Virus record (IMG/VR): IMGVR_UViG_3300028920_000032
Location: 1 to 64,000 of that record
Source: a virus
Length of the DNA: 64,000 bases
Direction: 5' to 3' (one strand)
The notes beneath the pieces are model-generated. The model was not told the DNA's origin. It was given only the letters and a program-made list of their open reading frames with translations, and searched no databases. Of the stretch, positions 35,569 through 59,339 are shown one piece after another (positions within the stretch are counted from its first letter, which is position 1; each line of letters begins with the position of its first letter). The position numbers and the translations under genes are program-made.

Positions 35569-35586
35569 AGAGTACAATTGTACTCT
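35569..35586. promoter_or_regulatory. Perfect 18-bp palindrome upstream of the gp25-type gene
   Basis: AGAGTACAATTGTACTCT reads the same on both strands and lies between the FN3 fibre gene stop and the gp25 ribosome site. As RNA it can form a 7-bp stem with an AATT loop directly before the Shine-Dalgarno. It could be a protein-binding operator, a processing hairpin or a translation-control element. Confidence 0.5.
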
Positions 35587-35633
35587 ACAATCAGTTTTAA
35601 TTATCTTTGAAGTTATTATAAATAGGTTTGTTT

Positions 35634-39296: not shown

Positions 39297-39307
39297 ATAT
39301 TATTTCC

Positions 39308-39772
39308 TTAAGAAGTTTTTACTTTATCTGAAGCAGTTGTAATTTTTCCTTTTACTTTTGTTGGAAGTAAAGGTTTAAGTGCACCGAATAATGCCGCAAC
39401 TACTGGGCTTGGTGCATTTGGCGGATGTGGAGTAGCTAAGTTTGTTTGAAGTGTACTAACTAAAGCTTCCATAAAAGACATGAATTGAGAATCTGTAGTC
39501 ATATCAATTGTTATCTCATCATCTTTTCTTGCAATGCCTTTTAATTGTCCGCCACAGTTTAATTTAATTTCGGGTGCTTTTATTTCTGCAGTCTTTGAAT
39601 TATCTTTAACTAATATATCATTAATGACAATTGCTATAGCTTCTAATAATTCTATGATAGTAGGCGCGTTTTTAGCCATCTCATTTCTTACTGGATTCAT
39701 GTTGAAACCTTTCTTCTCAGCTTCATCTTTTAATTTACTAAAAATGACATCTTTATCAAATATTTTAGCCAT
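39308..39772 (-). CDS. Unknown tail-region protein (154 aa)
   Basis: The ATG at 39772 has AAGGAG nine bases upstream. The N-terminus is helical (MAKIFDKDVIFSKLKDEAEK), followed by ELLEAIAIVINDILV and a strand region around KAPEIKLNCGG. The C-terminus is Pro/Ala-rich and then basic. It lies between the 306-aa unknown protein and the FN3 protein, in the core baseplate cluster, so a baseplate or tail assembly role is likely from position. No family is recognised. Confidence 0.75.
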   Translation of the reverse strand: MAKIFDKDVIFSKLKDEAEKKGFNMNPVRNEMAKNAPTIIELLEAIAIVINDILVKDNSKTAEIKAPEIKLNCGGQLKGIARKDDEITIDMTTDSQFMSFMEALVSTLQTNLATPHPPNAPSPVVAALFGALKPLLPTKVKGKITTASDKVKTS

Positions 39773-39784
39773 TATATTTTCTCC

Positions 39785-40705
39785 TTAATACTCACTCTCT
39801 ACTGAATCTAAAGCTTCCATTGCAGTTGATATACTATCAAGTGGAGTTGCCGCCACTGGGTAACCACCAAAGAAATCATAGACCGTACTACCAAATGCAG
39901 CCGGACCTAGTTTTTCTAACATGAATGATAAAAGTAACATTCCATATTTTACTGATGCTTCTTCAGGATTAGATACAAATTCTTGTAATATAGTTACTAT
40001 CAATGTTATCTGATCAACCTGTGGTTGAACACTAGCTAATTTTGTTGCTATGTCTGCTAACGCACTTTGTACTATAGGTGAATTAGGACCTAGAAATTTT
40101 GACAATATTGCTTTTGGTGTAGCAGCAATTGCTGATGGTAATTTAATAAGTGTCTCAATTAAATAACTAGCCATATCAATTAATGCAGTAGTAATAGCAC
40201 CAGTTTCTGTACCATTAAACCAGTATGCTAAAATGGTATCAGGTGTCATTGATTGTCTAGTCATTGAAAACGAATAAGCCCAAACATCATCCATATTTAT
40301 TGTTGTCACAGCAGTTGAACTTTTTCTACCCGATTCAGTAGTAGCTGACATTGTTACTTCTACTGGTGTTTCATCTTCAGTGTCATCTCTATCTGCCCAA
40401 CCATGTACTTGAGTAATTTCTGTTAGTGGAAACTTTTCATTATATATTTTATATGACATGCCATCAATTGTAGAGGTAGTCTTAAAATTATTCTCTTTAA
40501 TAAATCTAAATTCATAAACTCTTTCTGCAGGGTTATTAAGAGCGTTAGCAACTAGTTGTTGAACTCTTGGATCATTTCTTTCTAATGCTTCCATTTCTTC
40601 TGTTGGCGTATATCCTTTAATAACAAGTGTTAATCGGTCTGGAAATTGTTCTTCAGGAATTCGAATTATTAATTTTTTAAATTTATTTGTATTAACATTA
40701 GCCAT
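39785..40705 (-). CDS. Unknown tail-region protein (306 aa)
   Basis: Starts at 40705 after GGGGG. The N-terminal half (residues 1-150) is beta-rich, with IIRIPEEQFPDRLTLVIKGY and MTRQSMTPDTILAYWFNG. The C-terminal half is Ala/Leu/Ile-rich amphipathic helix (SAIAATPKAILSKFL, ITLIVTILQEFV) without clear charged flanks for true membrane spans. It directly follows the spike gene, where a hub or spike-associated role is plausible. Family unknown. Confidence 0.75.
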   Translation of the reverse strand: MANVNTNKFKKLIIRIPEEQFPDRLTLVIKGYTPTEEMEALERNDPRVQQLVANALNNPAERVYEFRFIKENNFKTTSTIDGMSYKIYNEKFPLTEITQVHGWADRDDTEDETPVEVTMSATTESGRKSSTAVTTINMDDVWAYSFSMTRQSMTPDTILAYWFNGTETGAITTALIDMASYLIETLIKLPSAIAATPKAILSKFLGPNSPIVQSALADIATKLASVQPQVDQITLIVTILQEFVSNPEEASVKYGMLLLSFMLEKLGPAAFGSTVYDFFGGYPVAATPLDSISTAMEALDSVESEY

Positions 40706-40711
40706 TAAACA

Positions 40712-41620
40712 TTAACCCCCAACAATAGTCTTTGTAGATCCTACATGTGTTTGCATGCATGTGAATGGACATATACAATTTGATGTTACTACACCGGCAG
40801 CTCCAAATTCACCAGGAGGCCCAACTACTAATGTTTCTCCATCGATTTTTACAACTAATCCATTTATATTAATTGATCCATTTTCTAAACTTTGAATATT
40901 TATTTGACACTTATCAGAACCTTTTATATTTATAAATCCTTCTTTAACTGATAACTCATCTCCCAATGCAGATTTCATTGTTATTCCACTGTCATCTATT
41001 GTGATCTCATGCACTCTTCCATCAGCTGTTCTAACTCCTAAAACAAGTGCACCATCTCTTAATGATACATATGAAGAAGATGATGTTGAAGTAGTAATTC
41101 CGAATGGTTCATACTCATAATCTAATTGATTTTTGTGGATGAGTTCCATCTTTGATTCATTTATAACAATTAAATTTTCTACCGAATTACTATCAGATTG
41201 AGTATCTGGATTGTCAATAGAAGGATACTGTGTTTTTAATATTATAGTTGTTGGATCGTTATTTGCTTCAGCAGGTATACTAGGTACTGTTTCAACAACA
41301 GGATATCCAACTGAATCACTTGCTTCTTCATTTATCTTTTTTAATGGTGCAAATGGATAAGCTCCAATCCATACTGGGAAATTAGAATTTCCATTTTCAA
41401 ATATAACATAACCATCAGCATGAATAGGTGGAAGCATGAAAAAACCCATACCAGACAAGCCACCATATGGTGTCAATACGGGACACCATGTATGTGATTC
41501 TTCGTTATAATTGAGTACACCATCTCTTTGATATATATGCACTAATATTTTATTCATTCCCGTTGGGTCATTGTTATCTAAACATTTTGCTCTATATATA
41601 CCAAACAATTTATTTTCCAT
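40712..41620 (-). CDS. Baseplate central spike protein, gp5 OB-fold type
   Basis: The N-terminal domain (MENKLFGIYRAKCLDNNDPT, then ILVHIYQRD, WCPVLTPYGG and GFFMLPPIHADGYVIFENG) is a gp5/VgrG-type OB-fold. A linker and a beta-helical spike segment follow (ITIDDSGITMKSALGDELSV, CQINIQSLENGSININGLVV). The C-terminus has Cys at CICPFTC and a His in QTHVGS, which may bind metal at a pointed tip. There is no lysozyme domain as in T4 gp5. The OB domain docks on the hub and the spike pierces the outer membrane or envelope. The ATG has AAGGA upstream. The tip interpretation is inference. Confidence 0.85.
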   Translation of the reverse strand: MENKLFGIYRAKCLDNNDPTGMNKILVHIYQRDGVLNYNEESHTWCPVLTPYGGLSGMGFFMLPPIHADGYVIFENGNSNFPVWIGAYPFAPLKKINEEASDSVGYPVVETVPSIPAEANNDPTTIILKTQYPSIDNPDTQSDSNSVENLIVINESKMELIHKNQLDYEYEPFGITTSTSSSSYVSLRDGALVLGVRTADGRVHEITIDDSGITMKSALGDELSVKEGFINIKGSDKCQINIQSLENGSININGLVVKIDGETLVVGPPGEFGAAGVVTSNCICPFTCMQTHVGSTKTIVGG

Positions 41621-41631
41621 ATTAACTATCC

Positions 41632-41964
41632 TTATATTAATATTCCTATTAAAGTATTATAATCTGGTATTAAAATTGACCTATCAACATAGAAATCTTT
41701 AGGATGCCACAAATAATTATATCCCATTATTACCCAAAATAAATATGGTGTACCATAATGAAGATTTGAGATATTGTCAGGCCTATATTCATATTTTGCT
41801 TCTATTTTCCAAGCTTCAGAAGCGACATTCGATCTTATACGATTTAGTAGTGTAAAATTCTTTTTACCAAGTCGCATTACTTTTATGTCACTATCATAGA
41901 TAGTAAAATATTGTCTTAATCTAGAATATATATTATTAGTAGGTACTTCGCCTTCTTTAGCCAT
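41632..41964 (-). CDS. Baseplate wedge subunit, gp53-like
   Basis: 110 residues. The pattern YEYRPDNISNLHYGTPYLFW followed by VIMGYNYLWHPKDFYVDRS and ILIPDYNTL matches the LysM-like gp53 family of T4-type baseplates (YRPDxIS ... YGxPxLWWxI ... NxIxxPxD ... LxIP). The ATG at 41964 has AAGGAG nine bases upstream. The position between the tube-initiator and spike genes agrees. gp53 joins wedges around the hub. Confidence 0.85.
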   Translation of the reverse strand: MAKEGEVPTNNIYSRLRQYFTIYDSDIKVMRLGKKNFTLLNRIRSNVASEAWKIEAKYEYRPDNISNLHYGTPYLFWVIMGYNYLWHPKDFYVDRSILIPDYNTLIGILI

Positions 41965-41982
41965 CTTTTACTCCTTGTTATA

Positions 41983-44520
41983 TTATTGTGGTGCCCATAA
42001 TAATACTTCATTATCTGTAACCGCTGGACCGATTTCAATAAGAGAAACTGAAATTACAATATTAGAATAATGTCTTTCATTTGCACCTATTATCCCACCC
42101 TTGTATTCAAAGCTAACGTTTTCACATAGCCACAATGATCTCATAGAATGAAATTTATAACCACCACTACTTAGTGAAAACCAATTTGTTCTGAATGTTG
42201 GATGTGATTCATTCAATTGACTATTATTTGAATCTTCAATCATTCCCGTAGAAGATCCTGTAGTATTCTCTAATCCTCCATACCAAACTTGTACAATTGG
42301 CGTCCCAAGTTTATATTTTGGATCTGACATGTTTGGTAATACCAAATTGCGAAAATTTCTTATTAGATAATTATAAATATATTCTTCAGTCCAATTTTTC
42401 ATTCCCATTGAGCTTATTGAATTACCAGATTCACCTAAATGATTATTGCCTGTTACTAGATATTCTAATTCTAAACCAATCTTTCTTTCATTACTATATT
42501 TATATACTTGAGCGGGAGTACTTCTTGCTAATGTAGAAATAGCAGAATAAGAAGCACCTTTGCTTTCTCCACTTATTTTAGGCTCAAACTGAAACGGTAA
42601 ATAGCAAATCTCATTTTGAGATGTTTGAAATTTCATACTTCTTTTAGTATATATTTTTAAATATCCAACATTTTCTGGATGATTAGATATACTTAAGTAA
42701 CTTCTATTTGAGTGATAATCACTTCTTTGATTTTCTCTATTTTTTTCTAAATCTGTTGTTTCTATTTTATTAGAATCTCTTTTATAATAATCAGATCTTC
42801 TATTTGATTCTGCTGTATTTAAAGCATCAGCAAGTTGAGCATTGGGTCTATCTGCTTCAAACGAATTGAAATCTTCTTTATTATACTGAGAGAAGTCTTT
42901 GTATGTTTCAACCATAGATAATTTATTTTGTAATTGTGCTCCGATATATTTTGTGGCAAATTCTTTTGCATATCTAAATGATTTAGCCGCTGAAAATAAA
43001 ATATCAACTATGGCACTTACAAGTGGCACATTTGGAGTATCGCCAATTACTCGTGAAATTATATTTGATGGTTTTACCTGAGTGACTATATTTTTTTCTG
43101 TTTTATTTATTTCTATGCCAACATCAATTTGATCTTTATTTACTTTTTCAGAAGGATTGTCTGATATTTGTATGATAGAAGAAGCTTCTTCAGGATCAGC
43201 AGTATTTATTTCGCCAGGCTCTTTAAAAACAGTTGGATTTAAAACTCCTGTTGATTTTGAGCTTTTGTCAATATCTGTATTGATGCTTGATCTAGTCTTT
43301 TCAGTCTTTTCGTCTGGTGAATCTAATTCGTTTATAAATTTCTCAACTACATCTTCAGCTGATTCAATATTATTAATATTCTTTTCATTTTTGTTTGCTG
43401 TTTCTTCTAAATTATTTATTAATTTAGAAGACTCTTGATCAGTTATGTCTAATTCTATTTGTTGCTTTGTTTCTTCAATTGCTGCTGTAGTAATTTCGTT
43501 TGGTGTTTTTTCATCACCTTTATCAGCAAGACTTATATTATTAACTAATTTATCATCTGTGTCTACTGAATCAATATTATTTCGTTCTTTTTCAGATTTA
43601 TTCAATTGGTTTTCTAAGACTTTGTTTTCATCTACATTTTTTCTGTTAATTAGTGAAGTATCATAACTATCGATTTTTGAAGCTTCATCATCCTTTAATT
43701 TTTTATTTACAATTGAAGATTCAATGTGTTCATTAATACTATCACTAGATTTATTAATGAAATCAGGAAATTCCCCTATTCCATAAACTCTTTTATCTGT
43801 TTTATCTTCAGATTCAGGGACGCTGCTTATATTCTTCTCATCTTTCTCAACTAATGTATCAACTGCTTGTTCACTCTTTCTTGTAGTAATATTTAGTTCT
43901 GCGATAGTTTGTGATTCTTTTTCATCTATAATAGTAGACGGTATAGATTCTATGTTTTTCTTTTGACTTAATGGTGTAATATCAATTTCTTGAGTACCTT
44001 TTTCTACTCTATCAGGGAAAATAAAATAATAATATTCTTTTAGTTGTTTTGCTAATAAAGAGAAAATAATATCAGTCATTATTTTTCTTGATGCGTCATT
44101 TGGCATATCAATTTGGTCGGATATTTTTTCTGTCCCTTTAATAACACTAATTGAATCATTAAGTAATTTAATTGTTTTGTCTAAGTTTTGATTACTTATT
44201 TCATTTATTTTTTTTCTGCTTATGTCTCCATAGTCTTGTGTTCTACTTGGAGTCTGTATGTTTAAAGATTCACCAGCTGCACTTGCTATAATACTACTAG
44301 CTTTTTCAATTTTATTAGACACATCATTGAATAAATATACAGAAGTTGTTTTATCAGCTTTACGTAAAGTATATAAAAGATTGCGTATTTCTGTTAAAGT
44401 TTTTATATTTGCTTGTTGTGGTGTGATAACAGCATCTGCAATTTTTTCTAATAAATTGTTTACAGTTGAGTTTACATCAATTATTTCTTTTGATTTAGTT
44501 GGTTCTTTTTTAATATCCAT
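41983..44520 (-). CDS. Tube-initiator/LysM-type tail protein with a very long disordered linker (845 aa)
   Basis: The start at 44520 has GAGGT upstream. Residues 1-150 are helical. Residues about 150-560 are a charged, Ser/Asp/Glu/Lys/Asn-rich low-complexity stretch with recurring ENK, DKS and INN motifs and no folded pattern. The C-terminal 250 residues contain YLPFQFEPKISGESKGASYS, then RSTPAQVYKYSNERKIGLEL. This matches the 'FxFNPxxIxxxKxxxxxxxxxxxRxxPxxxYxxGxRxIxFxL' pattern of contractile-tail tube-initiator/LysM proteins (T4 gp48/gp54 or XkdP-like roles). It lies between tape measure and gp53. The C-terminal call is moderate; the linker is clearly seen. Confidence 0.75.
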   Translation of the reverse strand: MDIKKEPTKSKEIIDVNSTVNNLLEKIADAVITPQQANIKTLTEIRNLLYTLRKADKTTSVYLFNDVSNKIEKASSIIASAAGESLNIQTPSRTQDYGDISRKKINEISNQNLDKTIKLLNDSISVIKGTEKISDQIDMPNDASRKIMTDIIFSLLAKQLKEYYYFIFPDRVEKGTQEIDITPLSQKKNIESIPSTIIDEKESQTIAELNITTRKSEQAVDTLVEKDEKNISSVPESEDKTDKRVYGIGEFPDFINKSSDSINEHIESSIVNKKLKDDEASKIDSYDTSLINRKNVDENKVLENQLNKSEKERNNIDSVDTDDKLVNNISLADKGDEKTPNEITTAAIEETKQQIELDITDQESSKLINNLEETANKNEKNINNIESAEDVVEKFINELDSPDEKTEKTRSSINTDIDKSSKSTGVLNPTVFKEPGEINTADPEEASSIIQISDNPSEKVNKDQIDVGIEINKTEKNIVTQVKPSNIISRVIGDTPNVPLVSAIVDILFSAAKSFRYAKEFATKYIGAQLQNKLSMVETYKDFSQYNKEDFNSFEADRPNAQLADALNTAESNRRSDYYKRDSNKIETTDLEKNRENQRSDYHSNRSYLSISNHPENVGYLKIYTKRSMKFQTSQNEICYLPFQFEPKISGESKGASYSAISTLARSTPAQVYKYSNERKIGLELEYLVTGNNHLGESGNSISSMGMKNWTEEYIYNYLIRNFRNLVLPNMSDPKYKLGTPIVQVWYGGLENTTGSSTGMIEDSNNSQLNESHPTFRTNWFSLSSGGYKFHSMRSLWLCENVSFEYKGGIIGANERHYSNIVISVSLIEIGPAVTDNEVLLWAPQ

Positions 44521-44534
44521 TTAATATACCTCAA

Positions 44535-47500
44535 CTATTTTTGTTTAACAAGAATTCCATTTCCAAGTGCAAGGTTTTTAATATTCTTTATGTATGACTC
44601 AGTTCTTGAAGATGCAGATTCTATAACTTGTAAATGCCCTTCTAATGCACTTAATTTATTCATTAATCTGTCTACTTCTTTTGCAAATGATTCTTGAATT
44701 GCAACATTTAATGATCTAGCTATAGACAGCTCTTCTTTTTTTTCTCCAAGTTCAGCATTGAATTCACTTTTTTTGCTTATAAGTCTAATAGGTTTAGCAT
44801 CTTCCATTTGTTTCATGAGTTTTGAAAATTGTTTAGCTGCACTACTTGCTTCACCATTAAATCCAACTAATACGGAAGTAATTGCAGCCATATCAACTGC
44901 AAGTTCAGAAAGTCTTGGAATAGTACTTGGTAATCTAGATAGTGATGTAAATAGTTGTGATAATCCTTGTCCAGCTTTTTGTATTGCACTACCTTTATAC
45001 ATACTCTTCATTATGATTAACAATGGTTCTTTGATATCATTAAGATTTTTTGCAACTGTTATTAAATCTGTTTTCCCGAGAATATATAATCCTATTGCTA
45101 ATTCACTGAAGCCTTGGCCCAAAGCAACTAATATTTTAGGATCCATTGAATACATACCCTCTTGTGCTTTAAGCATTTCAGATAAGAATTTTCCAATACC
45201 CTCAGCTGATTTTGACATAGTTCCGCTTAAACTTTCTAGTTGGTCAGCAGATTGTTGCAATACATATATACCAATTGCTAAAGCTTGAAATCCTTCACCC
45301 GTTCTTTGAATATTTTCAAACCAGCCTGTATGTGCTTTTAATGCTTCTAATAGTCCACTTACAAAATTAACAATTGGAATAAATCTTGAACCAGAAAAAG
45401 ACTCAATCATTCTAGTAAGATCTTCACTTGCTAATGTTTTTATACCTTCTGCTAATGCTTTAAACCCTTCTCCTGCATTTTTCATATTACCAATAAATGG
45501 CCCAACACTTATTGCTTCAATAGCTTTTTTAAGACCATCAAAACTAGCAGAGATTGCAGATGTTCTTTGAACTTCACTAAGAGTTTTTACAGCTTCTGAC
45601 AATATATAAAAACCTATTGCTAGATCTGTTAAATTTTGAGAAAACAATTTGAATTTACTTTTGTCTTTTACTGCACTTAACATTTCATTAATTGCTTCTC
45701 CAAATTCTTGAAGTGGTTTAATTAGTCCCACAAATTTAGTTTTTATTGTATCAGCAATTTCAGCAAAGAAAGCTAATCCTTTCCCCATTTCCATTATGTT
45801 GTCTGCTATTAACATAAATCCTAAACCAATTGCCGCTATTGCAATTCCTAAAACCAATAAAACACCTGCCATTGCTGCCATTCCTGCTAGTGCAATTGCA
45901 CCTACTGGTGTCATAAAGAAATAGCCTAATGCAACTAATCCTGCAACAAATATTGCAAGTATTGCAGCTGCTATTAATATTTGTTGCCATGGTTGTGAAG
46001 CTAAAAATCCAATACCAGTTGCAATTAAAAATATAGCAGCTCCTACTGCTAACATTACTAAAGCAGCACCAGCCATTTGTAGAAACATTTTTAAACCTGC
46101 GCCTACAGATTGAGTAAATGTTCCCATACCAGCAGCTGCTCCTCCGGCTACATTTCCCACGTTTGCAATTTTACTTGCTAAATTTCCAAGAAATCCAAGA
46201 ATTGGAGGTCCCAATTTCCATACAACTAAGAAAGCAATTATATATGGCACTGCTTTTTGTAAGAAGCTTATAACATTGCCAATTCCTTCACCTACGCTTT
46301 TGAAAAAATTGATTATCTTTTCTGGAGTCAAATTTCTAAAAAATTCCTGAAAACCTCTTGTTGCATTATCAAAAAATGCATCTATTGAATCAGCATTCTT
46401 TAGCCACCATTCGTTTAGCATTTCTAATATATCTGTTATAAATCCAATTATACCAGCAAGACGTTTCCCAAAGAATGCTCCTATCGTATTCATTAGTCTT
46501 TCTAGAGATCCTGACATAGTGGCCATACCTTCAGCAGCCTGCTTTTCAAAAGCTGCTTCACCACTGTCAATCTTTGCAAGCTGTTCACGTCCTTTTTTTG
46601 CTAATCTTAATGCTTCTTGCGCATTATTAAATCCCATCTGTTGAGCTCTAACATTTGCTGCGACGATATTTCCACCTTGTTCAAGAATTCTATTTATTTC
46701 ATCAGCGGCAGTAATCAACCCCTCTGTTAATTTTCGTAGATCAACAGGACCTCCACGTAACATGTCAAGATATTCATGCATATTCATTCCCATCTTCGCG
46801 ACTAATAATGCATTTTCTCCGATTCGTGATGCATCAAATAATTTTTCCATTATTTCATTAGCTCTTCCAGCTGTAAGTCCTAATGCTCCAAACATACCTG
46901 TTAATTTTGCAGTAGCCTCTGTCATGGCTACTATGTCTTGTTCGGCTGCGCCGAATGCTGACATTAGAAGAGTTAATTTACTGACTGTACCAATCATTGC
47001 ACTCATTTCTTGTTCAGTTAATCCAACTGCATCTTGGACTTTAGAAAATGTTCTTAATATACCGCCTGCTCCAACAATTAGTTCTTTACTAACTCCTCCC
47101 ATAACTCTTAGTCTAGCTATCATATCTGTTAATTGTTCTTGGTTGGCACCTAATGCTTTAGCTCCTAAGATTGCATATTTACTCAATTGCTTTAAATCAT
47201 CAAATGGTACTCTCTGTTGAGCTAAAGAAATATATTGGTCTTTTACTGTTTTAATACTTGCAGTAGTTTCAAATGCGACTTCATTTATATCAGACAATGC
47301 TTTAGCCACACGAGTGCCCATACTTTCTGCTTTACCCTCAGCACTTGCAAAACTGCTACTCATCATAGAAAACATGCGCACTAAATCTTTCTGCACGTCA
47401 AACACCATTTCTTTTATGTTCTTCCAGATAGATGCAAATATACCTATTATAGGTATAGCAGCTGCACCAAAAGCATCTTTCATTCTTGCAGCAGTCGTTT

Positions 47501-47723
47501 CAACTATGTTTCGTATACTTTCTATAGGTCTAGTCCAGTCCATTTCTTTTATAGCTTGTTGTATACTTTTTATCTGGTTGATAGCAGCATCGGCACCAGC
47601 TATGGCACCTTTCTCAAATGATTCTCTAATGCCTTTATCAATGCCTTTGGAAGCTTGCTTTAAAGCAGTAGGAGCAAGTTTTTCGAATTGTAATTTTATA
47701 TTTAAAATATGTTCACTAGCCAT
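44535..47723 (-). CDS. Tail tape measure protein (1,062 aa)
   Basis: Long helical protein with the normal features of a tape measure: an N-terminal coiled coil, a central block of hydrophobic helices (AVPYIIAFLVVWKLG, MLAVGAAIFLIATGIGFLA, ILIAAAILAIFVAGLVALG, MAGVLLVLGIAIAAIGLGF), and a second coiled-coil region after about residue 640. Repeated segments of the form GEGFKALAEGIKTLA / GEGFQALAIGIYVLQ / GQGFSELAIGLYILG occur at roughly 90-residue spacing in the C-terminal half. It sets tail length and passes through the membrane at injection. The ribosome site is weak (GCTTGG). Position after the hub gene agrees. Confidence 0.92.
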   Translation of the reverse strand: MASEHILNIKLQFEKLAPTALKQASKGIDKGIRESFEKGAIAGADAAINQIKSIQQAIKEMDWTRPIESIRNIVETTAARMKDAFGAAAIPIIGIFASIWKNIKEMVFDVQKDLVRMFSMMSSSFASAEGKAESMGTRVAKALSDINEVAFETTASIKTVKDQYISLAQQRVPFDDLKQLSKYAILGAKALGANQEQLTDMIARLRVMGGVSKELIVGAGGILRTFSKVQDAVGLTEQEMSAMIGTVSKLTLLMSAFGAAEQDIVAMTEATAKLTGMFGALGLTAGRANEIMEKLFDASRIGENALLVAKMGMNMHEYLDMLRGGPVDLRKLTEGLITAADEINRILEQGGNIVAANVRAQQMGFNNAQEALRLAKKGREQLAKIDSGEAAFEKQAAEGMATMSGSLERLMNTIGAFFGKRLAGIIGFITDILEMLNEWWLKNADSIDAFFDNATRGFQEFFRNLTPEKIINFFKSVGEGIGNVISFLQKAVPYIIAFLVVWKLGPPILGFLGNLASKIANVGNVAGGAAAGMGTFTQSVGAGLKMFLQMAGAALVMLAVGAAIFLIATGIGFLASQPWQQILIAAAILAIFVAGLVALGYFFMTPVGAIALAGMAAMAGVLLVLGIAIAAIGLGFMLIADNIMEMGKGLAFFAEIADTIKTKFVGLIKPLQEFGEAINEMLSAVKDKSKFKLFSQNLTDLAIGFYILSEAVKTLSEVQRTSAISASFDGLKKAIEAISVGPFIGNMKNAGEGFKALAEGIKTLASEDLTRMIESFSGSRFIPIVNFVSGLLEALKAHTGWFENIQRTGEGFQALAIGIYVLQQSADQLESLSGTMSKSAEGIGKFLSEMLKAQEGMYSMDPKILVALGQGFSELAIGLYILGKTDLITVAKNLNDIKEPLLIIMKSMYKGSAIQKAGQGLSQLFTSLSRLPSTIPRLSELAVDMAAITSVLVGFNGEASSAAKQFSKLMKQMEDAKPIRLISKKSEFNAELGEKKEELSIARSLNVAIQESFAKEVDRLMNKLSALEGHLQVIESASSRTESYIKNIKNLALGNGILVKQK

Positions 47724-47726
47724 AGT

Positions 47727-49679
47727 TTACCAAGCTTTAATTAATTTTAACGATGTTGTATATTCACCATCTGATATATTGTGACTACAACCTTTTATAC
47801 ATAGATAGTTGCCAGTAATTATATTACTTATTGCATTCTGATTATTTGGCAAAGGTCGATGTATAGTTATCTTAAAATAAGAGTTATATAAATTCACTAA
47901 ATAATCTTGATTTCTGAAATTATTTTGTCCATGAACATTCCATATTGAATTATCTAACCATGGATCTCCTGAAATACTAATACTTACATCAAATATTTCT
48001 TTAGCAAATTTATTCCATACATTTATAACTAATCTTCTACCATCATTTTCTATATCAACTTCATTCCCACCTCTAGAATCATAATTAAATTCTACCTCAT
48101 ATCCTCCGCTAATTCCATCTACATTTTTAACATAATTACCAGCACTTTCTGTTGGTAATGCATCTAAAGCTGTGTTTAAATCAGAGTATTTGGCGGTTAG
48201 TTTATTAGTTTTTGTGTTTTCTCCTTTTACACTGGGATCTGGAGTAGTACCCATACTCCATTTGAGTAGCTCAGAGCTGCTCAAATTTTCTTGGGCCTTT
48301 TTAGCTTCACTTGCTGCATCACCTGTGGACATGTAATATATACTTTTCTTTTCATCATCTGTAGTTTTTTCAAATTCAGTAGCTGTCGATATTACTTTTA
48401 GTTTACCTTCATTAGTAATTGTTATGGCATAAATTTGTGGCAGCCCAAACATATAATATCCTTTTGAAGACCATTCATATGATAAACTATTTATCATAGT
48501 TTGACCTTTAGCTATTTCTTCTTTATTTCCAGGACGATATATAAATGTTCTAGCTAGCCTAAATTTATCTTGAGCTTCTTTATCATCTATAGGTTTTGTT
48601 GGTGGCACTGGCTGCCAACCAAATACCATCCCTGGTTCTTTTGGATATACTCCGTCTCTACCCTCTAATCTAACACCAGCAATCATTACTGCTCTATATC
48701 CTTCTAATTCTAACATGCTAAGAAGTTTTTCTACAACTGATCTAATACCTTCTTTTGCTCCTATAACATATTTATCTTTTGTTTCTTGGTTTATAGGTCC
48801 ACCAATTTTAGTTCCTTCAATTGTTTCATCCCATGTTACTTTTAAATCTTCATTATTATTGTTTTTTGCCCACCATTTTCTTAATACAGTTCTTAACATA
48901 TACCATGGTGTTCTATTATAGAATACATTTTCAATTTCAATATCTGGCTCTGTAGTTGTGCTTTCATTGCTTGAAGCATCTTCAACATAAAAGCCTTTTT
49001 CTCCTAATGTGGTACCGACTGCAGTACCAGCTTTTAAGTCATCATAAAATGGATCTCCAGGTTTTTGACCAAACAATTTTTTTAGTGTTTCATCTAACAC
49101 ATCTTGTTTGGTTATAGTTTTTAATCCGCCTGACGATTGGTTTGCAGGCGGTGTATCTCTTAAATTTAAATTTCCAATTGATGGATCTGGTTCATTATGA
49201 CGACCATTGAATAAGCCTTCTCCTAAATCAATTAGTTCAAATGTAACTTTCAATTCTACTTCATCTAAATCATATCTTAGATCTTTTAATAAATAAGCAT
49301 GTATTCCAGAGTGTTTACCTTGCCCCTTTCCTCCATCGTGAAAATCCACTTGACGTCCATAATATGTCCATCCCCAAAATACTCTACAAAACCAATAACC
49401 ATTTGTTTTTGAAGTTCTATTGGCAATTACTTGAGCTTTAGCAAAGAAAGCTTCTAAATTTACAAAATCTGGATCTACTAAAGTAATTGAAGCTGTTGAA
49501 GATCCGGCATCACTTAATACTTCAAAATTTGCATTTCCAACATAAATTCTATTAGTTGGATTTGGGAAAGTATGTATATATGTAGACCCTCTAAATTGTA
49601 TAGATATAAATGGAGTCATTGGAGAACCAATGTTCTGCCAATCTAGAGTTTTATAAGGCCCAGTTGGTTTATTTGGCAT
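47727..49679 (-). CDS. Probable baseplate hub / tail protein upstream of the tape measure (650 aa)
   Basis: The start at 49679 has AAAGGAAAT and overlaps the end of a WG-repeat gene by 11 bp. Residues 1-180 (ISIQFRGSTYIHTF, ASITLVDPDFVNLEAFFAK) are beta-rich and resemble the first domain of gpD/gp27-like hubs. The C-terminus (YLCIKGCSHNISDGEYTTSL) has the 'xxxVxHxIxxGxFxTxLxL' ending common in such proteins. The middle is long and unassigned. Its place next to the tape measure and upstream of the spike supports a hub function, but the match is by pattern only and other tail roles are possible. Confidence 0.65.
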   Translation of the reverse strand: MPNKPTGPYKTLDWQNIGSPMTPFISIQFRGSTYIHTFPNPTNRIYVGNANFEVLSDAGSSTASITLVDPDFVNLEAFFAKAQVIANRTSKTNGYWFCRVFWGWTYYGRQVDFHDGGKGQGKHSGIHAYLLKDLRYDLDEVELKVTFELIDLGEGLFNGRHNEPDPSIGNLNLRDTPPANQSSGGLKTITKQDVLDETLKKLFGQKPGDPFYDDLKAGTAVGTTLGEKGFYVEDASSNESTTTEPDIEIENVFYNRTPWYMLRTVLRKWWAKNNNNEDLKVTWDETIEGTKIGGPINQETKDKYVIGAKEGIRSVVEKLLSMLELEGYRAVMIAGVRLEGRDGVYPKEPGMVFGWQPVPPTKPIDDKEAQDKFRLARTFIYRPGNKEEIAKGQTMINSLSYEWSSKGYYMFGLPQIYAITITNEGKLKVISTATEFEKTTDDEKKSIYYMSTGDAASEAKKAQENLSSSELLKWSMGTTPDPSVKGENTKTNKLTAKYSDLNTALDALPTESAGNYVKNVDGISGGYEVEFNYDSRGGNEVDIENDGRRLVINVWNKFAKEIFDVSISISGDPWLDNSIWNVHGQNNFRNQDYLVNLYNSYFKITIHRPLPNNQNAISNIITGNYLCIKGCSHNISDGEYTTSLKLIKAW

Positions 49680-50046
49680 TAAATATTTCCTTTATCAATT
49701 TATAAAAATCCTTATGCTCAATTGGTATACCATTTTTGTTTATATGAAATTCTACTTTGTTAATTCTAACACAAGCTCTTCCTACTTCGAAATCAAAAAC
49801 ATCATCATAAATTATAGGCGTTGTAACGTTGCCATTTAGATCAACATGACCCCACTTGTTGCCTTTTATAACCCAAGCTCTGCCTTCATTGAAAAATCCA
49901 ACACCATCATAAATTATAGGCGTTGTTACTTTACCATTTAGATCAACATGACCATATTTATTGTTTTTTAAAACTCGAGCCCTGTTTTCTGAGAAGTTGG
50001 CAATACCGTCTAAATCTAACTTTTTCTTTATTTGTTCACTAGTCAT
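49669..50046 (-). CDS. WG-repeat protein, three repeats
   Basis: 125 residues, starting MTSEQIKKKLDLDGIANFSENRARVLKNNK. It has three WG-type repeats with HVDLNGK(V/N)TTPIIYD cores and the family tail (EFHINKNGIPIEHKDFYKLI). Start and stop overlap both neighbours (8 and 11 bp), which implies strict translational coupling with the next WG gene and the hub-type gene. In the first repeat the usual EGRAW is SENRAR, a change shared with the next paralogue. Confidence 0.85.
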   Translation of the reverse strand: MTSEQIKKKLDLDGIANFSENRARVLKNNKYGHVDLNGKVTTPIIYDGVGFFNEGRAWVIKGNKWGHVDLNGNVTTPIIYDDVFDFEVGRACVRINKVEFHINKNGIPIEHKDFYKLIKEIFNAK

Positions 50047-50413
50047 TAAATATCTCTTTTATCAACTTATAATAATCTTTATGTTCAATGGGATAACCAT
50101 TTATATTTATATCAAATCCAAAATTTTTGATTTCAACCCAAGCCCTACCTTCATGGAAATTGCCAATATTATCATAAATTATAGGCGTTGTTACTTTACC
50201 ATTTAGGTCAACATGACCCTCTTTGCCATTTTTCTCAACATAAGCTCTGCCTTCATAGAAATTGCCGGCATCATCATAAATTATTGGTGTTGTTACTTTA
50301 CCATTTAGATCAACATGACCATACTTATTGTTTTTTAAAACTCGAGCCCTGTTTTCTGAGAAGTTTGCAATCCTGTCTAAATTTAACTTTTTCTTTATTT
50401 GTTCACTAGTCAT
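50039..50413 (-). CDS. WG-repeat protein, three repeats
   Basis: I chose the ATG at 50413 (MTSEQIKKKLNLDRIANF) because it aligns with the other family members; the frame opens upstream without a site. The product is 124 residues. The first repeat is nearly identical to that of the following gene, while repeats two and three resemble the 34.8-kb copies (EGRAYVEKNGKEGHVDLNGK). Such mosaic similarity suggests recombination or gene conversion between copies. Family tail: FDININGYPIEHKDYYKLI. Confidence 0.82.
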   Translation of the reverse strand: MTSEQIKKKLNLDRIANFSENRARVLKNNKYGHVDLNGKVTTPIIYDDAGNFYEGRAYVEKNGKEGHVDLNGKVTTPIIYDNIGNFHEGRAWVEIKNFGFDININGYPIEHKDYYKLIKEIFND

Positions 50414-50426
50414 ATGAATATACCAA

Positions 50427-51218
50427 TTATTTAGCAAGATCCCAATCATTACTAATTATATATTTAATAATACTATGATATCTTTGATGTTTGTTTCTTC
50501 CTTCAACAATATGTCCAGTAAGAGTATCAAATTTAATTTCTACATACAGATTATTAAATCTTTCATATCTCGAAAATTTTATTTTATCATCTCTTGTATA
50601 AACACATTCGTTAAAAAAATTAGTCTCAATAATCACTTTACCTTTTTTATCAATTAAGCCATAAAAACGTTGCCAATGTGCATATGCATGTCCTAATTCT
50701 TTAGTGATAACTGCAGTACCATTATAAAATTCTCCAATTTCGTCAAATTGTAAAGGTATTACTAATTTACCATTAAGATTGACACATCCTGTCTTACCAT
50801 CTTTTTTTACCTGTGCCAACCCTTCTTTAAATTCAGATGCAACTGAATCATAAATAAGAGGAGTAGTTACTTTACCATTTCTATCTACATGGCCTTCTTT
50901 TCCATCCTTCTCAACCCTTGCTCTGTCATACGAATAGAATTCACCAACATCATCATAAATTATAGGTGTAATTATTTCTTTAGTTTTTTTAATACAATGT
51001 CCATATTTCTTACCTTTTTGGACTATAGCTATACCATTTTTAGATCTGCCAATACTATCACCTTCACCTTCTATTTTCTTTATTAATTCTTTTTTACTAA
51101 TAGGATCAACTTGTTTCCATTTACGACTCTTACCGGGATTTCTGTTAGGACTCTTAGCTTCATTAATATATAAAATTTCACTTAAATTTAGTTTTTTCTT
51201 TATTTGTTCTCTATTCAT
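50427..51218 (-). CDS. Longer, diverged WG-repeat protein (263 aa)
   Basis: The start at 51218 follows AAGGAG. It begins with the family leader MNREQIKKKLNLSEI, then a basic insert (NRNPGKSRKWKQVDP), then at least four WG-type units with more divergence (GRSKNGIAIVQKGKKYGH, YDRARVEKDGKEGHVDRNGK, EGLAQVKKDGKTGCVNLNGK, YNGTAVITKELGHAY). The C-terminal 80 residues differ from the family tail and are Arg/Tyr/Asn-rich. It may be the oldest member of the cluster. Confidence 0.8.
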   Translation of the reverse strand: MNREQIKKKLNLSEILYINEAKSPNRNPGKSRKWKQVDPISKKELIKKIEGEGDSIGRSKNGIAIVQKGKKYGHCIKKTKEIITPIIYDDVGEFYSYDRARVEKDGKEGHVDRNGKVTTPLIYDSVASEFKEGLAQVKKDGKTGCVNLNGKLVIPLQFDEIGEFYNGTAVITKELGHAYAHWQRFYGLIDKKGKVIIETNFFNECVYTRDDKIKFSRYERFNNLYVEIKFDTLTGHIVEGRNKHQRYHSIIKYIISNDWDLAK

Positions 51219-51587
51219 TTAAAATATACTCCTTATCAATTTATAAAAATTTTCATGTTTTAATGGATAGCCATCTTTATTTATATAAAATTCAAAATTA
51301 TTTATTTTAGCCCAAGCTCTACCCTTATAGAAATGTTCAACATCATCATAAATTATAGGTACTACTACTTTACCATTTAGATCAACATGACCCTCTTTTC
51401 CATTTTTCCTAACCCAAGCTCTGCCTTCCTGGAAAGAGCCAACAACACCATAAACTATTGGTGTTGTTACTTTGCCATTTTTATCAACATGACCCATTTT
51501 ATCATTTTTCTGGATCCAAGCTCTGCCTTCATAGAAATTGCCAATACCGTCTAAATTTAACTTTTTCTTTATTTGTTCTTTGGTCAT
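51219..51587 (-). CDS. WG-repeat protein, three repeats
   Basis: 122 residues. The leader MTKEQIKKKLNLDGIGNF is the same as in the 34-35 kb copies. There are three WG repeats (EGRAWIQKNDKMGHVDKNGK and similar) and the tail EFYINKDGYPLKHENFYKLI. It abuts both neighbours without a gap. The ribosome site is GGGTG in the end of the upstream gene. Confidence 0.85.
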   Translation of the reverse strand: MTKEQIKKKLNLDGIGNFYEGRAWIQKNDKMGHVDKNGKVTTPIVYGVVGSFQEGRAWVRKNGKEGHVDLNGKVVVPIIYDDVEHFYKGRAWAKINNFEFYINKDGYPLKHENFYKLIRSIF

Positions 51588-55151: not shown

Positions 55152-55302
55152 CTTTTTTCTTTTTCCTTTTTTTCTTTTTCGTGCTTTTAATAGCCGTATA
55201 TCCAGCTGGTACTTTTCTTCTAACTATTGGACTAACTCTTTTTTTGATACCTTCTACATCTGCTGCTTGTGTTGCTATTTCAAGCGCTTCCTGAAATTTC
55301 AT
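55138..55302 (-). CDS. Small Lys/Arg-rich protein with leader MKFQEALEI (54 aa)
   Basis: A short gene I read directly from the sequence. The ATG at 55302 has AAAGGAG upstream and overlaps the stop of the 433-aa gene (ATGA). The product is 54 residues. MKFQEALEIATQAADVEG is followed by KKRVSPIVRRKVPAGYTAI and a run of ten Lys/Arg (KKKKRKKKKD). It ends with TGA at 55138 inside the next gene. Very basic; probably binds nucleic acid. Confidence 0.7.
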   Translation of the reverse strand: MKFQEALEIATQAADVEGIKKRVSPIVRRKVPAGYTAIKSTKKKKRKKKKDEVK

Positions 55303-56600
55303 TTTTTTACTCCTTTCAATTTTGTTTGTTGCGTACCAAACTTTCTCCTTATTGCACCGTACTTTCTTTGTAGAAAGAATTTACCAGGAACATCATGGAC
55401 TCTGAATGTCCATGTGTCTAATTTTCTATTCAGCTCTCCAACTCTAGCATCAAACCAAGCTTCACCAACCATCCTTAGTTTACCAGATATAAGAACTTCA
55501 TTATCTTTTGATGATGTTATGTCGACTATTTCGAAATTTGCTTTTCTTGTTGCAAAGAACTCTAATACCGTTCCTTCGAATATTCTATTTGCTGTACTAC
55601 AAGTTATACCTTTTTCTCTGAACAGAGCTTTCATTCCTGTTGAATTTATATCTTTAGTTAATTGAATTGCCAATTCATCTTCAGGTATTTCTAACTCTTC
55701 ACCTTTTTCACTTTTTGGATATTTGTGAGCTGCTTTTTCTTTTTTAATCTCAACTAATAAAGTTTTTAAATATTTTTGTAAGTTTAATTCTTCAAATTTT
55801 CCTTTTTCAAAATCTCGGAAATGTTTTAGAGTTAATCTAGCCAATTGTTCATCACTTGTAATTTTATAATTATCTAATAACCATTTAGCAAATTTTGTAG
55901 CAATTCCTTTTTTAGCTTCGAATTTGTCTTGAACTATTTGTACTATATCAGCCTGACGTTTAAAGTTTTCTTCAGCTCCAGCTTCTAAAGTTTTTATATC
56001 ACTTAATGCATCAACAACTTCTTCATCAGTGGCTACTTTAAAACTAGTTTTTTTGTTTTTAAGACGAGTGTCACTAGCTTTTAATGTTATTTCCCCAGCA
56101 TATGGAGTACTTACGTCAAATTTATCAACGTTAAATCTTATATCGTTGTTGCTTTCTTTCATCTTTATTCTGAATGTAGTATCTGCCGTCAGTGTTCCAT
56201 GCAATATAACTCTAAATTGAAATGGTCTATATCTAGCTGCACCATGATGTGCATCAGCTGTTAATTTAAATGATTTACCCATAGACTTAGCTAGGTCATT
56301 CATTATCCTTCCATCCATCAATGGAAGTAACCATACTTTCTTATCTTTTTCTTGCGGCCAGTCAGCACTGTCAACTGGAGGTTTCATATAATACATAACA
56401 TTAGTTGCAAGATATTGTATCTTTTTTGTAGTTTGAACATCATCAGCGGCAATATTTTGTGTTGGTACTTGTTGCTGCACTTGTTGTGGTTGCTGCGCTA
56501 CATTAGTAGGAGGCGTTGGTGTTTCTTCTGGAGGCTCTTGTTCAATTAATAAATCAAGCATCTTTTTGACTCTATTTTCAAACTTCTTTTTTCTAATCAT
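55299..56600 (-). CDS. Unknown 433-aa basic protein with Pro/Gln-rich linker
   Basis: The start at 56600 has AAAAGGAAAT. The N-terminus MIRKKKFENRVKKMLDLLIE contains L-I-E at residues 18-20, a possible prohead-protease-type site. A Pro/Gln/Glu-rich linker follows (PPEETPTPPTNVAQQPQQVQ, to about residue 55), then a large Lys-rich alpha/beta part with strand-rich ends (VLISGKLRMVGEAWFD, RKLDTWTFRVHDVPGKF). It leads a block of three genes for basic proteins. Virion or DNA-associated protein is a guess from leader and composition. Confidence 0.7.
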   Translation of the reverse strand: MIRKKKFENRVKKMLDLLIEQEPPEETPTPPTNVAQQPQQVQQQVPTQNIAADDVQTTKKIQYLATNVMYYMKPPVDSADWPQEKDKKVWLLPLMDGRIMNDLAKSMGKSFKLTADAHHGAARYRPFQFRVILHGTLTADTTFRIKMKESNNDIRFNVDKFDVSTPYAGEITLKASDTRLKNKKTSFKVATDEEVVDALSDIKTLEAGAEENFKRQADIVQIVQDKFEAKKGIATKFAKWLLDNYKITSDEQLARLTLKHFRDFEKGKFEELNLQKYLKTLLVEIKKEKAAHKYPKSEKGEELEIPEDELAIQLTKDINSTGMKALFREKGITCSTANRIFEGTVLEFFATRKANFEIVDITSSKDNEVLISGKLRMVGEAWFDARVGELNRKLDTWTFRVHDVPGKFFLQRKYGAIRRKFGTQQTKLKGVKK

Positions 56601-56603
56601 TCT

Positions 56604-57194
56604 TTATTTCCTTTTTGTTATCGATTTATAGACTAAAGAACCAGCTCCAGCTAACGCTATCATAATGGAATATTTCATTTTAACAATGAATTTATTATAT
56701 TGCATATCAGCTTCATAGATAAACCAATTATAATTAACTTTTTTTAAAATTTTAAATTTATCTTTAAATAAAGTTTTTTGATTTTCTTTTAAGAATTTTT
56801 TAAATTTTTTTTCTATAAAACTTTTAAATGTTGCATGCGGAACTTTATTTGTTATAACAAGAGGCAATGATTTTTTCCATTTCCACTCTAATGTTCTTGG
56901 AAACTCATAGGAAACTTTTGGATTTTTTAGAAAATTATCTTTTAGCCATCGCATTGCTCTAAATGCCACTGTAATCCTACGACTTGTTATTTCTTTTACA
57001 AAAATATAGTCTTTCTTTATGTCATCACTGATAGTTTCTTCAATTTCTTTCTTTAACTCTTTTTCACTTATTTTGTCTTCACTCTTTGCAGTTACTGGCC
57101 AAATAGGGTTGACATAGAGAAGAAATTCATTTTTGTGTGATTCGTAATTATACCAATCAAAACTTTTAGGTTTGATTTTGTCTTTCTTCCCCAT
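56604..57194 (-). CDS. Unknown basic protein with C-terminal hydrophobic helix (196 aa)
   Basis: The start is uncertain. I prefer the ATG at 57194 (MGKKDKIKPKSFDWYNYE). The alternative ATG at 57227 would add MKKLLQEKDLK, which looks like the MK-leader family (L-Q-E) but lacks a ribosome site. The body is Lys/Trp/Tyr/Phe-rich alpha/beta. Near the C-terminus YSIMIALAGAGSLVY is a single hydrophobic helix followed by KSITKRK, as in a tail-anchored membrane protein. No family is recognised. Confidence 0.65.
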   Translation of the reverse strand: MGKKDKIKPKSFDWYNYESHKNEFLLYVNPIWPVTAKSEDKISEKELKKEIEETISDDIKKDYIFVKEITSRRITVAFRAMRWLKDNFLKNPKVSYEFPRTLEWKWKKSLPLVITNKVPHATFKSFIEKKFKKFLKENQKTLFKDKFKILKKVNYNWFIYEADMQYNKFIVKMKYSIMIALAGAGSLVYKSITKRK

Positions 57195-57591
57195 TTTTAA
57201 ATCTTTCTCTTGTAACAGTTTTTTCATAACTTAAATCAAAAATTCTTCTATATTTGAAATCTGAAAAGAATCCTTCACCAGCAATATTGCGTGAAGTAAA
57301 TATTATTGTCGGTTCTCGACCGCGTATGGCTGAAATTTCGTTAATAATAAATACACATGCAATAGGAAGTCCAGGTAGATTTACCACAAACGGCTGATCG
57401 CTTAATATATACTTCTTTTGCTTTACTACTATATCATGACATTGTAAATATGGATTCTTTGACAAGTCTAGATTTACTTTAACCATGATCTGTTCACATG
57501 TCTTTGCGTCGACTTCTTCTTCGATGCTTTTTAACACTTCGTCTCTTAATTTCGCTCCGAAATTAAGTAAATATACTTTTTCATGAGACAC
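57166..57591 (-). CDS. Csx15-like protein, possible counter-CRISPR factor (141 aa)
   Basis: GTG start with GGTGG upstream. The N-terminus VYLLNFGAKLRDEVLKSIEE and the central PFVVNLPGLPIACVFIINEI followed by GREPTIIF recall the CRISPR-linked Csx15 family (pattern 'LLNFxHxL ... PLLVNLPSLxxxAxLLLAELHGRxGxFPxIxRL'). Members are found beside type III CRISPR systems and are linked to cyclic oligoadenylate signalling. Size agrees with that family. There is no CRISPR locus here, so in a phage the natural reading would be a sponge or ring-nuclease-type antagonist. Recognised from memory of the motif pattern, not from a search. It may also be a Rossmann-like protein of other function. Confidence 0.45.
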   Translation of the reverse strand: MSHEKVYLLNFGAKLRDEVLKSIEEEVDAKTCEQIMVKVNLDLSKNPYLQCHDIVVKQKKYILSDQPFVVNLPGLPIACVFIINEISAIRGREPTIIFTSRNIAGEGFFSDFKYRRIFDLSYEKTVTRERFKNGEERQNQT

Positions 57592-57643
57592 AACTTACCA
57601 CCTTCATAAATAATATTTTAATTATCTTGATAAATTGCGTTAA

Positions 57644-58321
57644 TTACTCATAATATGCCCAATGATATTTCCCTGCTCTTTTATATTGTCCTCTACAACA
57701 TAAACAAATACTCGTATAATTAGTTTTTGTAATAATTGATGCTTCTTTCATGCTTTCAAAAATTTGGCCAGTGTCTAAATTTATAACTGATTTTGATAAG
57801 TTCTTTTTATGCTTTTCAGAAAGATGTTTACCATAATTAGGATGATTCTTACCCTTATTAGATTTAGATATCTTTCTCTTTGTTTTTTCAGAGCGACATT
57901 TTCCTTTAAGTGAATTGGATATTTTTTCTCTTGTTTCTGCAGAAGGATTTTTATTTGCATCTGATATTTTTTTCTTATGTTCATCAGAAAGTTTTACTCC
58001 CTTCTTAGCTTTGGACATCTTTTCTCTTGATTCTTTAGAATAATATTTATTTTTATTACCACCAGAATCTAGATTATAACCTTTAGGATGCATTGCATCT
58101 AATCTTTTTATCATTTCTTTTTCAAAATAATCAAGTAATTCTTCTGGTACTACAAAAACAAATATGCTAAAATTTTTAATACCATATTTTCTTAGCGCTC
58201 TATTAATTATTTGTTTTTTATTTCTTAAGTGGCTTTTTAAACGAATTGTAAAAGTTCGAGTCGTTTGACCTACATAACATTTATTGTTTATTTTATTTTC
58301 TAAAATATATATTTGAGGCAT
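57644..58321 (-). CDS. GIY-YIG homing endonuclease with NUMOD3 repeats (Seg-like)
   Basis: 225 residues. The GIY-YIG core lies at the start (IYILENKINNKCYVGQT, with Arg and His in the following IRLKSHL), and a Glu later in EKEMIKRLDA. The centre has four to five NUMOD3-type DNA-binding repeats (KESREKMSKAKKG, SDEHKKKISDANK, SAETREKISNSLKG, SEKTKRKISKSNKGKNHPNYG, SEKHKKNLSKS). The C-terminus is NUMOD1-like (VINLDTGQIFESMKEAS). All features of an active Seg-type nuclease are present. It follows the Csx15-like gene's upstream gap and precedes the exonuclease. Confidence 0.93.
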   Translation of the reverse strand: MPQIYILENKINNKCYVGQTTRTFTIRLKSHLRNKKQIINRALRKYGIKNFSIFVFVVPEELLDYFEKEMIKRLDAMHPKGYNLDSGGNKNKYYSKESREKMSKAKKGVKLSDEHKKKISDANKNPSAETREKISNSLKGKCRSEKTKRKISKSNKGKNHPNYGKHLSEKHKKNLSKSVINLDTGQIFESMKEASIITKTNYTSICLCCRGQYKRAGKYHWAYYE

Positions 58322-58340: not shown

Positions 58341-59339
58341 CTAGCTGAAAATTGCAGAAATTGTTGCAAACTCTTCTAATAAAGATAATAATTTATGTTT
58401 GAAATAGAATTTTTGGATTTCTTTCAGGTTGATTTTATCAACATCTACAAACAAAGATTTGTTAATAGTTAAATTTTTTAAGATTGGATTGTTGCTAATT
58501 TTGATAAGTGTCAAATTTCTTTTAATTATTTCTAAATTTTCTTTAACAATATTTAATTTATTTGATACATCTTTCTTTGTTTTCTTTGGAATAGCATTCT
58601 CTATTACATTAAGAATTTCTATGCCACTGGCTATCTCACGAGCTGCTTTAAGTGCTTTCTTTTCGCCAAAACCTGGAACACCTCCTATATCATCTGTTTT
58701 GTCACCCTTAAATGCTTTGTATATGACTACGTCATAATCTTTTGGTATGTTTACATAAATGTCTTTGATTGGGTGATATACTTTTACATTCTTAAATTCT
58801 TGAGCGATTTGTACAAGATCACTGTCAGATGAAACAATAATTACTGTATTATGTTTGCTTAAAAATTTAGAATATAAATATATAATGTCATCAGCTTCTA
58901 AGCCTTCGACACCAATTTGTGACATAGGATAATAATTTAAAACATTCTTAATTTCATTAATATTGTTAAAGAGAATTTCCCATATGGGATCATGTTCATA
59001 ATCGCGACGACATTTATAATCGGGATAAACTTGTTTTCTCCACTCATGTGAGTTTGGATTGTCCCAAGTCATTATAAATGTTCCTGTAAATTTTTTAAAA
59101 TGTTTGTGTAGCTTTCTAAAAAAAACTAGAAGCATCATCCCGCTAATTGCTTTATAATCTTCTTTTTCAATTTGAACATTTTGTTTTGCTTCTTTTTCTG
59201 CAACCCATACTGTCTTGCCTTTCTTTGTAAGAGACTCTACATATTGTTTAATTTTGTTTTTTAAGATTATTGATTTAGCTCTGTGAAATGCAATATGTGC
59301 AAGATTATTTCCATCTAATAATATATACTTTTCATCCAT
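58341..59339 (-). CDS. rnh: 5'-3' exonuclease, FEN / T4 RNase H family
   Basis: 332 residues, close to the T4 RNase H length. Conserved metal ligands are visible: Asp9 (ILLDGNN), Asp93 (TWDNPN), Glu148-Ala-Asp150-Asp151, Asp172 and Asp174 (SSDSDLVQ), and Asp213, Asp216 and Asp217 in GDKTDDIGGVPGFGEKKA, the helix-hairpin-helix region. The enzyme removes RNA primers and flaps during lagging-strand synthesis. It has no clear ribosome site. In T4 rnh sits beside dsbA and gene 33, and small unknown genes lie upstream here too, but I cannot match them. The rnh symbol is used by analogy. Confidence 0.92.
   Translation of the reverse strand: MDEKYILLDGNNLAHIAFHRAKSIILKNKIKQYVESLTKKGKTVWVAEKEAKQNVQIEKEDYKAISGMMLLVFFRKLHKHFKKFTGTFIMTWDNPNSHEWRKQVYPDYKCRRDYEHDPIWEILFNNINEIKNVLNYYPMSQIGVEGLEADDIIYLYSKFLSKHNTVIIVSSDSDLVQIAQEFKNVKVYHPIKDIYVNIPKDYDVVIYKAFKGDKTDDIGGVPGFGEKKALKAAREIASGIEILNVIENAIPKKTKKDVSNKLNIVKENLEIIKRNLTLIKISNNPILKNLTINKSLFVDVDKINLKEIQKFYFKHKLLSLLEEFATISAIFS

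Follow-up and report, generated by a model that had tools for sequence, protein, structure and literature searches.

What does a gene that resembles csx15 do in the genome of a phage? Csx15 (NCBIfam NF040560; PfCsx15, PDB 9TET, and CliCsx15, PDB 9TEU) acts as a cA4 sponge or slow ring nuclease in type III CRISPR loci. The gene studied here lies in a stretch of 64,000 nucleotides, denoted the window, which spans positions 1 to 64,000 of the 158-kb IMG/VR record IMGVR_UViG_3300028920_000032. A first-pass annotation, made from the letters alone, had pointed to Csx15 on the order and spacing of short motifs and had proposed a sponge or a ring-nuclease-type antagonist. The resemblance to Csx15 proved right as a remote homology in a phage setting. 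Descent, gene order, nucleotide-site residues, and possible functions are described below.

A csx15-like gene in a large phage

The open reading frame was confirmed as a genuine one. Its GTG start, with the identical AAGGTGGT ahead of it, recurs in the closest relative, L150. Codon differences between the two genes were 0.33/0.17/0.56 at positions 1/2/3, a pattern as in a gene under selection; dS was saturated, and a dN/dS value is therefore omitted. All motifs quoted in the first-pass annotation were found in the protein, namely VYLLNFGAKL (residues 6-15), FVVNLPGLPIACVFIINEI (residues 68-86), and GREPTIIF (residues 91-98). The gene is phage-borne, as indicated by baseplate wedge proteins in the window and by its homologues in six further distinct phages. 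It had been described as lying outside any CRISPR locus, and indeed we found neither a CRISPR array (simple repeat search) nor a csm1-family Cas10 in the 158-kb record, while cellular positive controls were detected in the Cas10 search.

Table 1 Features of the csx15-like gene and its neighborhood in the window.
Feature	Position	Strand	Description
csx15-like gene	57166..57591	minus	141 aa, GTG start; NCBIfam Csx15 E 1.7e-6; phage family alignment
Shine-Dalgarno-like GAAGGTGG	57598..57605	minus	AAGGTGGT also precedes the GTG start of L150
Motif I NFGAKL, residues 10-15	57547..57564	minus	A13 at the Csx15 histidine position
NLPGLP, residues 71-76	57364..57381	minus	NLPG invariant across the phage family
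EISAIRGREP, residues 85-94	57310..57339	minus	Corresponds to Csx15 ELHGRxGxFP; H90 -> S87, F96 -> E93
F112 and basic C-terminal stretch, residues 112-132	57196..57258	minus	K124, R128, R130, K132
Partner gene	56604..57227	minus	207 aa (first ATG) or 196 aa (ATG at 57194)
5'-3' exonuclease	58341..59339	minus	PF02739 E 1.8e-21; position occupied by homologues in L150, L152, L167
GIY-YIG/NUMOD3 homing endonuclease	57644..58321	minus	PF01541, PF07460, phrog_314
Gene next in row, function unassigned	55299..56600	minus	433 aa; homologue in L150

Homology to Csx15

The best NCBIfam family of the window protein was Csx15, with residues 7-129 aligned to positions 1-123 of the 125 positions of the model, and the order and spacing of the motifs agreed over the full length of this alignment. 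The score, 28.2 bits, misses the curated cut-off of 35 bits, which L152 passes with 51 bits; Csx15 was likewise the best family for L153, L150, and L151. The sole PADLOC match was a weak one to the Csx15 model (E 0.017). The protein had no match in Pfam and none that was significant in PHROGs, and single-sequence searches in IMG/VR, phages, plasmids, and the PDB returned nothing useful.

For profile comparisons, we collected cellular Csx15 from 22 loci in genomes of Chloroflexota, Chlorobiota, Bacillota, and others; a repeat search found CRISPR arrays at three of the loci checked. This collection was begun with a provisional Csx15-like sequence, which was compared with PDB 9teu and 9ylu and served solely to retrieve real sequences. 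In five loci of Chlorobiota type (L016, L018, L019, L020, and L022), the csx15 frame extends about 68 codons upstream. The extension includes a hydrophobic stretch, and a membrane anchor is therefore possible in the native protein.

Our own Csx15 profile, built from about 20 real sequences including two PDB chains, matched one of the 409 stop-to-stop ORFs in the window, the csx15-like ORF, at 20.6 bits (best of 5000 shuffled controls, 8.4 bits). When the model was restricted to cellular Csx15, all but one of the seven phage members scored above every one of the 14,000 shuffles; the exception, L151, reached 9.0 bits against 9.8 bits for the best shuffle. Profile-profile comparison, which the first-pass annotation had proposed as a check, bore out the assignment: hhalign aligned the phage family with cellular Csx15 at 96.9% probability (E 1.9e-10 for that pair). 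In the other direction, the phage-family profile recovered Csx15 in other phages with E values down to 1e-10. On the strength of these profiles, we regard the common descent of the phage family and Csx15 as established. A chance likeness, to which one could ascribe the score of the window protein under the cut-off and the PDB searches (no match by sequence, none below 1e-3 by fold), is largely refuted and scarcely credible, given that L152, with 40% identity to the window protein, passes the cut-off, that the profile matches are reciprocal, and that shuffled controls score far lower.

Structure prediction, also proposed as a check, gave a divided answer. Csx15 has a CARF-like topology with a beta4-beta5 hairpin, forms dimers, and stacks head to tail. 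With an alignment, AlphaFold2 returned a model of pLDDT 85 with the order beta-alpha-beta-alpha-alpha-beta-alpha-beta-beta-alpha, which is compatible with the published Csx15 topology but is not independent evidence, since the alignment contained Csx15 sequences. Folding without an alignment failed (pLDDT 38.5). A Foldseek search of the PDB (library to 2026-04-08) gave no match below 1e-3 and did not have 9TET or 9TEU among its matches; weak matches to CARF/SAVED proteins (Cad1, Can2, Cap5, TIR-SAVED, and Cam1) occurred among other Rossmann-like folds. Against BFVD, one uncharacterized archaeal-virus protein was matched at 6.8e-4.

A phage clade with conserved gene order

We searched IMG/VR for relatives of the window protein with a degenerate pattern. 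Seven further records carry homologues and represent six distinct phages, two of the records (L165 and L166) having identical stretches and being counted as one; together with the window phage, there are seven. The gene is hence not the lone phage copy that had been supposed, and its gene order is shared. Identity to the window protein was 68% for L150, 44% for L165/L166, 41% for L151 and for L167, 40% for L152, and 34% for L153. In a phylogenetic tree, the seven distinct phage proteins form a single clade with a support of 100/100. This clade has a long stem and a composition unlike the rest of the tree, and its placement within the Csx15 tree is therefore unsettled.

A 5'-3' exonuclease gene is located upstream of the csx15-like gene in the window, L150, L152, and L167, although the exonucleases of the phages sharing this order are only 26-46% identical. 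The exonuclease is the probable ancestral upstream neighbor. The gap between the two genes holds a GIY-YIG gene in the window phage only and lacks it in L150, L152, and L167, which suggests that the GIY-YIG gene was inserted there in the window phage; L167 does have a GIY-YIG gene, located beyond the exonuclease as seen from the csx15-like gene. The homing-endonuclease neighborhood, which had been read as a sign of an anti-defense gene, is thus particular to the window phage. Since the homing endonuclease is missing at this place in relatives, the csx15-like gene looks like conserved phage content and not accessory cargo; among the relatives compared, which are those that carry the gene, it looks like part of the phage backbone. 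L150 shares many further genes with the window phage in unchanged order. A search with the exonuclease alone returned no relatives, and no Csx15 match was found in 18 distant Pol III phage records. Weak tblastn matches of L152 in 'Listeria' contigs were rejected as a NadA-like frame.

A partner gene is found downstream of the csx15-like gene in six of the seven phages, either immediately or separated from it by one or a few small ORFs. Searches of Pfam and PHROGs with the partner returned nothing above noise, and no hallmark function emerged from the databases. Its most hydrophobic 17-residue stretch was C-terminal in all six homologues, with a mean hydropathy of 1.26-1.8. The value in the window copy was 1.43; among 117 comparable ORFs of the record, only two attain 1.5 at this end. 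Judged by its composition, the C-terminal segment is a possible membrane tail.

Several side observations were also made. The window phage encodes two Pfam DHH-family phosphoesterases and a third protein that resembles one by eye (L076:4256-5257, L076:7117-8214, and L078:14741-15700), which are possible nucleotide-signal phosphodiesterases. A phage-borne GGDEF-EAL protein, with domains for cyclic di-GMP synthesis and breakdown, was found at L079:14512-15864, and a phage-borne Ro60/TROVE protein at L078:6789-8396. An anaerobic ribonucleotide reductase with a LAGLIDADG-type insertion (L080:10131-13433) hints at an anaerobic host. Pol III alpha is seemingly split, with its PHP and polymerase parts in separate frames (L077:2726-9871), and a homing-endonuclease-like frame lies on the opposite strand (L077:3958-4788). 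Several short WG beta repeat proteins are encoded at positions 34340-51587 of the window (one was checked: PF14903, E 1.3e-36), apparently as repeated gene copies among the tail genes.

Loss of conserved histidines

The residues on which Csx15 depends have been probed by mutation. In CliCsx15, which cleaves cA4 slowly, H13A abolished cleavage and only subtly affected cA4-induced oligomerization, whereas H90A abolished this oligomerization and nearly all activity (PMC13148439). PfCsx15 is a natural, non-cleaving sponge, and its H11A mutant neither assembles on nor sequesters cA4; R116, R120, and R123 are located at the phosphates, and Y113/F106 flanks the adenine (PMC13148439).

We found H13, P14, H90, G91, R92, G94, F96, and E117 to be near-universal in cellular Csx15 and in five aligned viral Csx15; the corresponding residues of the window protein are A, K, S, A, I, G, E, and R. 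By alignment, residues 112-132 of the window protein are the equivalents of the Csx15 adenine-contact and phosphate-contact residues. In this part F113 is kept as F112, R125 is replaced by K124, and R129 is kept as R128, while the C-terminal arginine set of PfCsx15 corresponds to K124, R128, and F131, the last flanked by R130 and K132. The motif-I histidine was missing in all seven phage members, and the whole clade is therefore expected to lack catalysis by the known Csx15 mechanism. The second histidine (H90/H82 of LHGR) was kept only in L152 (EIHGLTGAFP) and L167 (EIHALTGRFP) and lost in the other five. In sequence, L152 and L167 come close to the H13A state, which is competent for binding; the window copy appears to have drifted further. 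New conserved features, SLNLKKHS..Q.HD, FSxFKYKR, and RER..SREN, are specific to the phage members. The window protein is accordingly a member of a Csx15-derived family and not a Csx15 in the strict sense. With both histidines gone from the window copy, the label "ring-nuclease-type" does not fit, and ring nuclease activity of the known Csx15 type is unlikely on sequence grounds. The phage members form a natural mutant series, with the first histidine lost in all and the second kept in two, which could separate binding from cleavage.

Apparently intact Csx15 in other phages

When IMG/VR was scanned with Csx15 of cellular and viral origin, open Csx15-type genes were uncovered on ten contigs. 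A further contig, L162, was set aside; its frame runs into a transposase-like frame and it looks cellular. Four of the contigs encode a terminase large subunit along with a Csx15 that has both histidines: L064/G407 (100 kb), L067/G410 (135 kb), L068/G411 (54 kb), and L069/G412 (34.5 kb). L163/G838 has a terminase and a changed LHGR region. A repeat search found no CRISPR array in these four contigs or in G408 (G407 was covered except for its last 391 bases), and no csm1-type Cas10 was found in the four contigs, G408, or G409. Apparently intact Csx15 is thus encoded, to judge by sequence, in at least four terminase-bearing phage contigs. The viral sequences were scattered in the tree. Its well-supported branches require a minimum of five label changes, an indication of repeated transfer.

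A survey of 28,114 phage genomes had reported AcrIII-1, Csx16, and Csx20, and no Csx15 (PMC12409355), and no phage Csx15 was observed in another study (PMC13148439). This absence was taken as a hint that Csx15 might be useless as an anti-CRISPR (PMC12409355, PMC13148439). The survey covered the Millard collection, while the present scan covered IMG/VR. The uncultured phages contradict the earlier absence, some by their apparently intact Csx15 and the large phages by retaining a Csx15 clade that has changed strongly.

Possible functions of the phage protein

Our best explanation, held with somewhat less than even confidence, is that the csx15-like product is a catalytically dead, Csx15-derived, CARF-like sponge, vertically kept in a lineage of large tailed phages. 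The Csx15-like dimer would still form, and F112 and the basic C-terminal residues would bind a cyclic or other adenine-containing nucleotide without cutting it. A host alarm nucleotide would thereby be sequestered, perhaps near the membrane and jointly with the hydrophobic-tailed partner. This sponge step is tentatively the most likely single function. The phages with apparently intact Csx15 indicate that phages do use this fold, and the CliCsx15 H13A mutant, of which L152 and L167 look like natural variants, loses cleavage yet oligomerizes with cA4 (PMC13148439). However, the window copy has lost H90 and has no equivalent of H11, the residues whose mutation abolishes cA4-induced assembly in CliCsx15 and, together with sponging, in PfCsx15; the near-universal P14, G91, R92, F96, and E117 are altered too. 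Synteny and wide retention of this kind are also met more typically in structural or replication genes than in anti-CRISPRs.

A second reading is nearly balanced with the non-cleaving sponge, and we consider it a real possibility: the Csx15 fold may have been recruited, with the partner, for an ordinary phage job in replication/recombination or assembly, with no role in counter-defense. Consistent with this are the synteny across phages with such divergent exonucleases, the partner that follows in six of seven phages despite differing upstream genes, the loss of the nucleotide-contact histidines, and the new phage-specific features. On the other hand, F113 and R125/R129 (as K/R) of the nucleotide site are mostly retained, characterized relatives of the fold bind cyclic nucleotides, and the partner has no hallmark function.

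Instead of a sponge, the gene pair could also be a sensor, in which the CARF-like protein and the partner with its hydrophobic tail form a nucleotide-triggered two-gene membrane effector of the phage, used for example against competitors or for timing lysis. The C-terminal hydrophobic maximum of the partner in all homologues agrees with this, as do the Csx15-type domains of SLFN_AlbA_2 fusion 'Cash' proteins, which are probably sensors. Nevertheless, the modest hydropathy of the tail, which makes a membrane segment uncertain, and the lack of a known effector domain render it improbable. A broader statement, that a syntenic module of a non-cleaving Csx15-type binder and its partner either sequesters or senses a defense nucleotide in large phages, seems to us rather doubtful. 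More improbable still than the sensor is that the protein is an active ring nuclease, degrading cA4 as an anti-CRISPR in the manner of AcrIII-1 or AcrIII-2; homology to the slow cA4 cleaver CliCsx15 (PMC13148439) and the intact Csx15 of other phages would favor it, but the catalytic histidine of motif I is missing in every phage member and the second histidine in five of seven.

Comparison with known systems

The window protein aligns with Csx15 over the full length and keeps N9-F10, G94, P97, F113, L121, and R129, with R125 as K. It differs in having lost H13, P14, H90, G91, R92, F96, and E117, in its score under the family cut-off, and in belonging to a separate phage clade without CRISPR linkage. 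The Csx15-like domain of CbCash (PDB 9ylu) likewise lacks both histidines (NFLQPL and EMQGRM) and shares the NLPG motif; CbCash, however, is a Schlafen-type fusion inside a type III CRISPR locus, whereas the phage protein stands alone. We observed a 297-aa protein with SLFN_AlbA_2 and Csx15-like domains in a Chloroflexota type III CRISPR locus (L014:7111-8004), whose C-terminal part equals CbCash letter for letter where shown; the two proteins are of the same length. Similar fusions occur at L147, L123, and L143, and csx15 adjoins the fusion in L014 and L123.

AcrIII-1 (Crn2) and AcrIII-2 (viral SAVED ring nuclease) are phage-borne like the window protein, and AcrIII-2 is the closest reported fold to Csx15 (PMC13148439). 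Both are active ring nucleases, in contrast to our prediction for the phage clade, and the catalytic H128 of AcrIII-2, at the position of Csx15 H13, has no counterpart in the window protein. With the sponges Acb2 and Acb4 (PMC11722364, PMC12751052), the window protein would share only the proposed mode of action, the binding of an alarm nucleotide.
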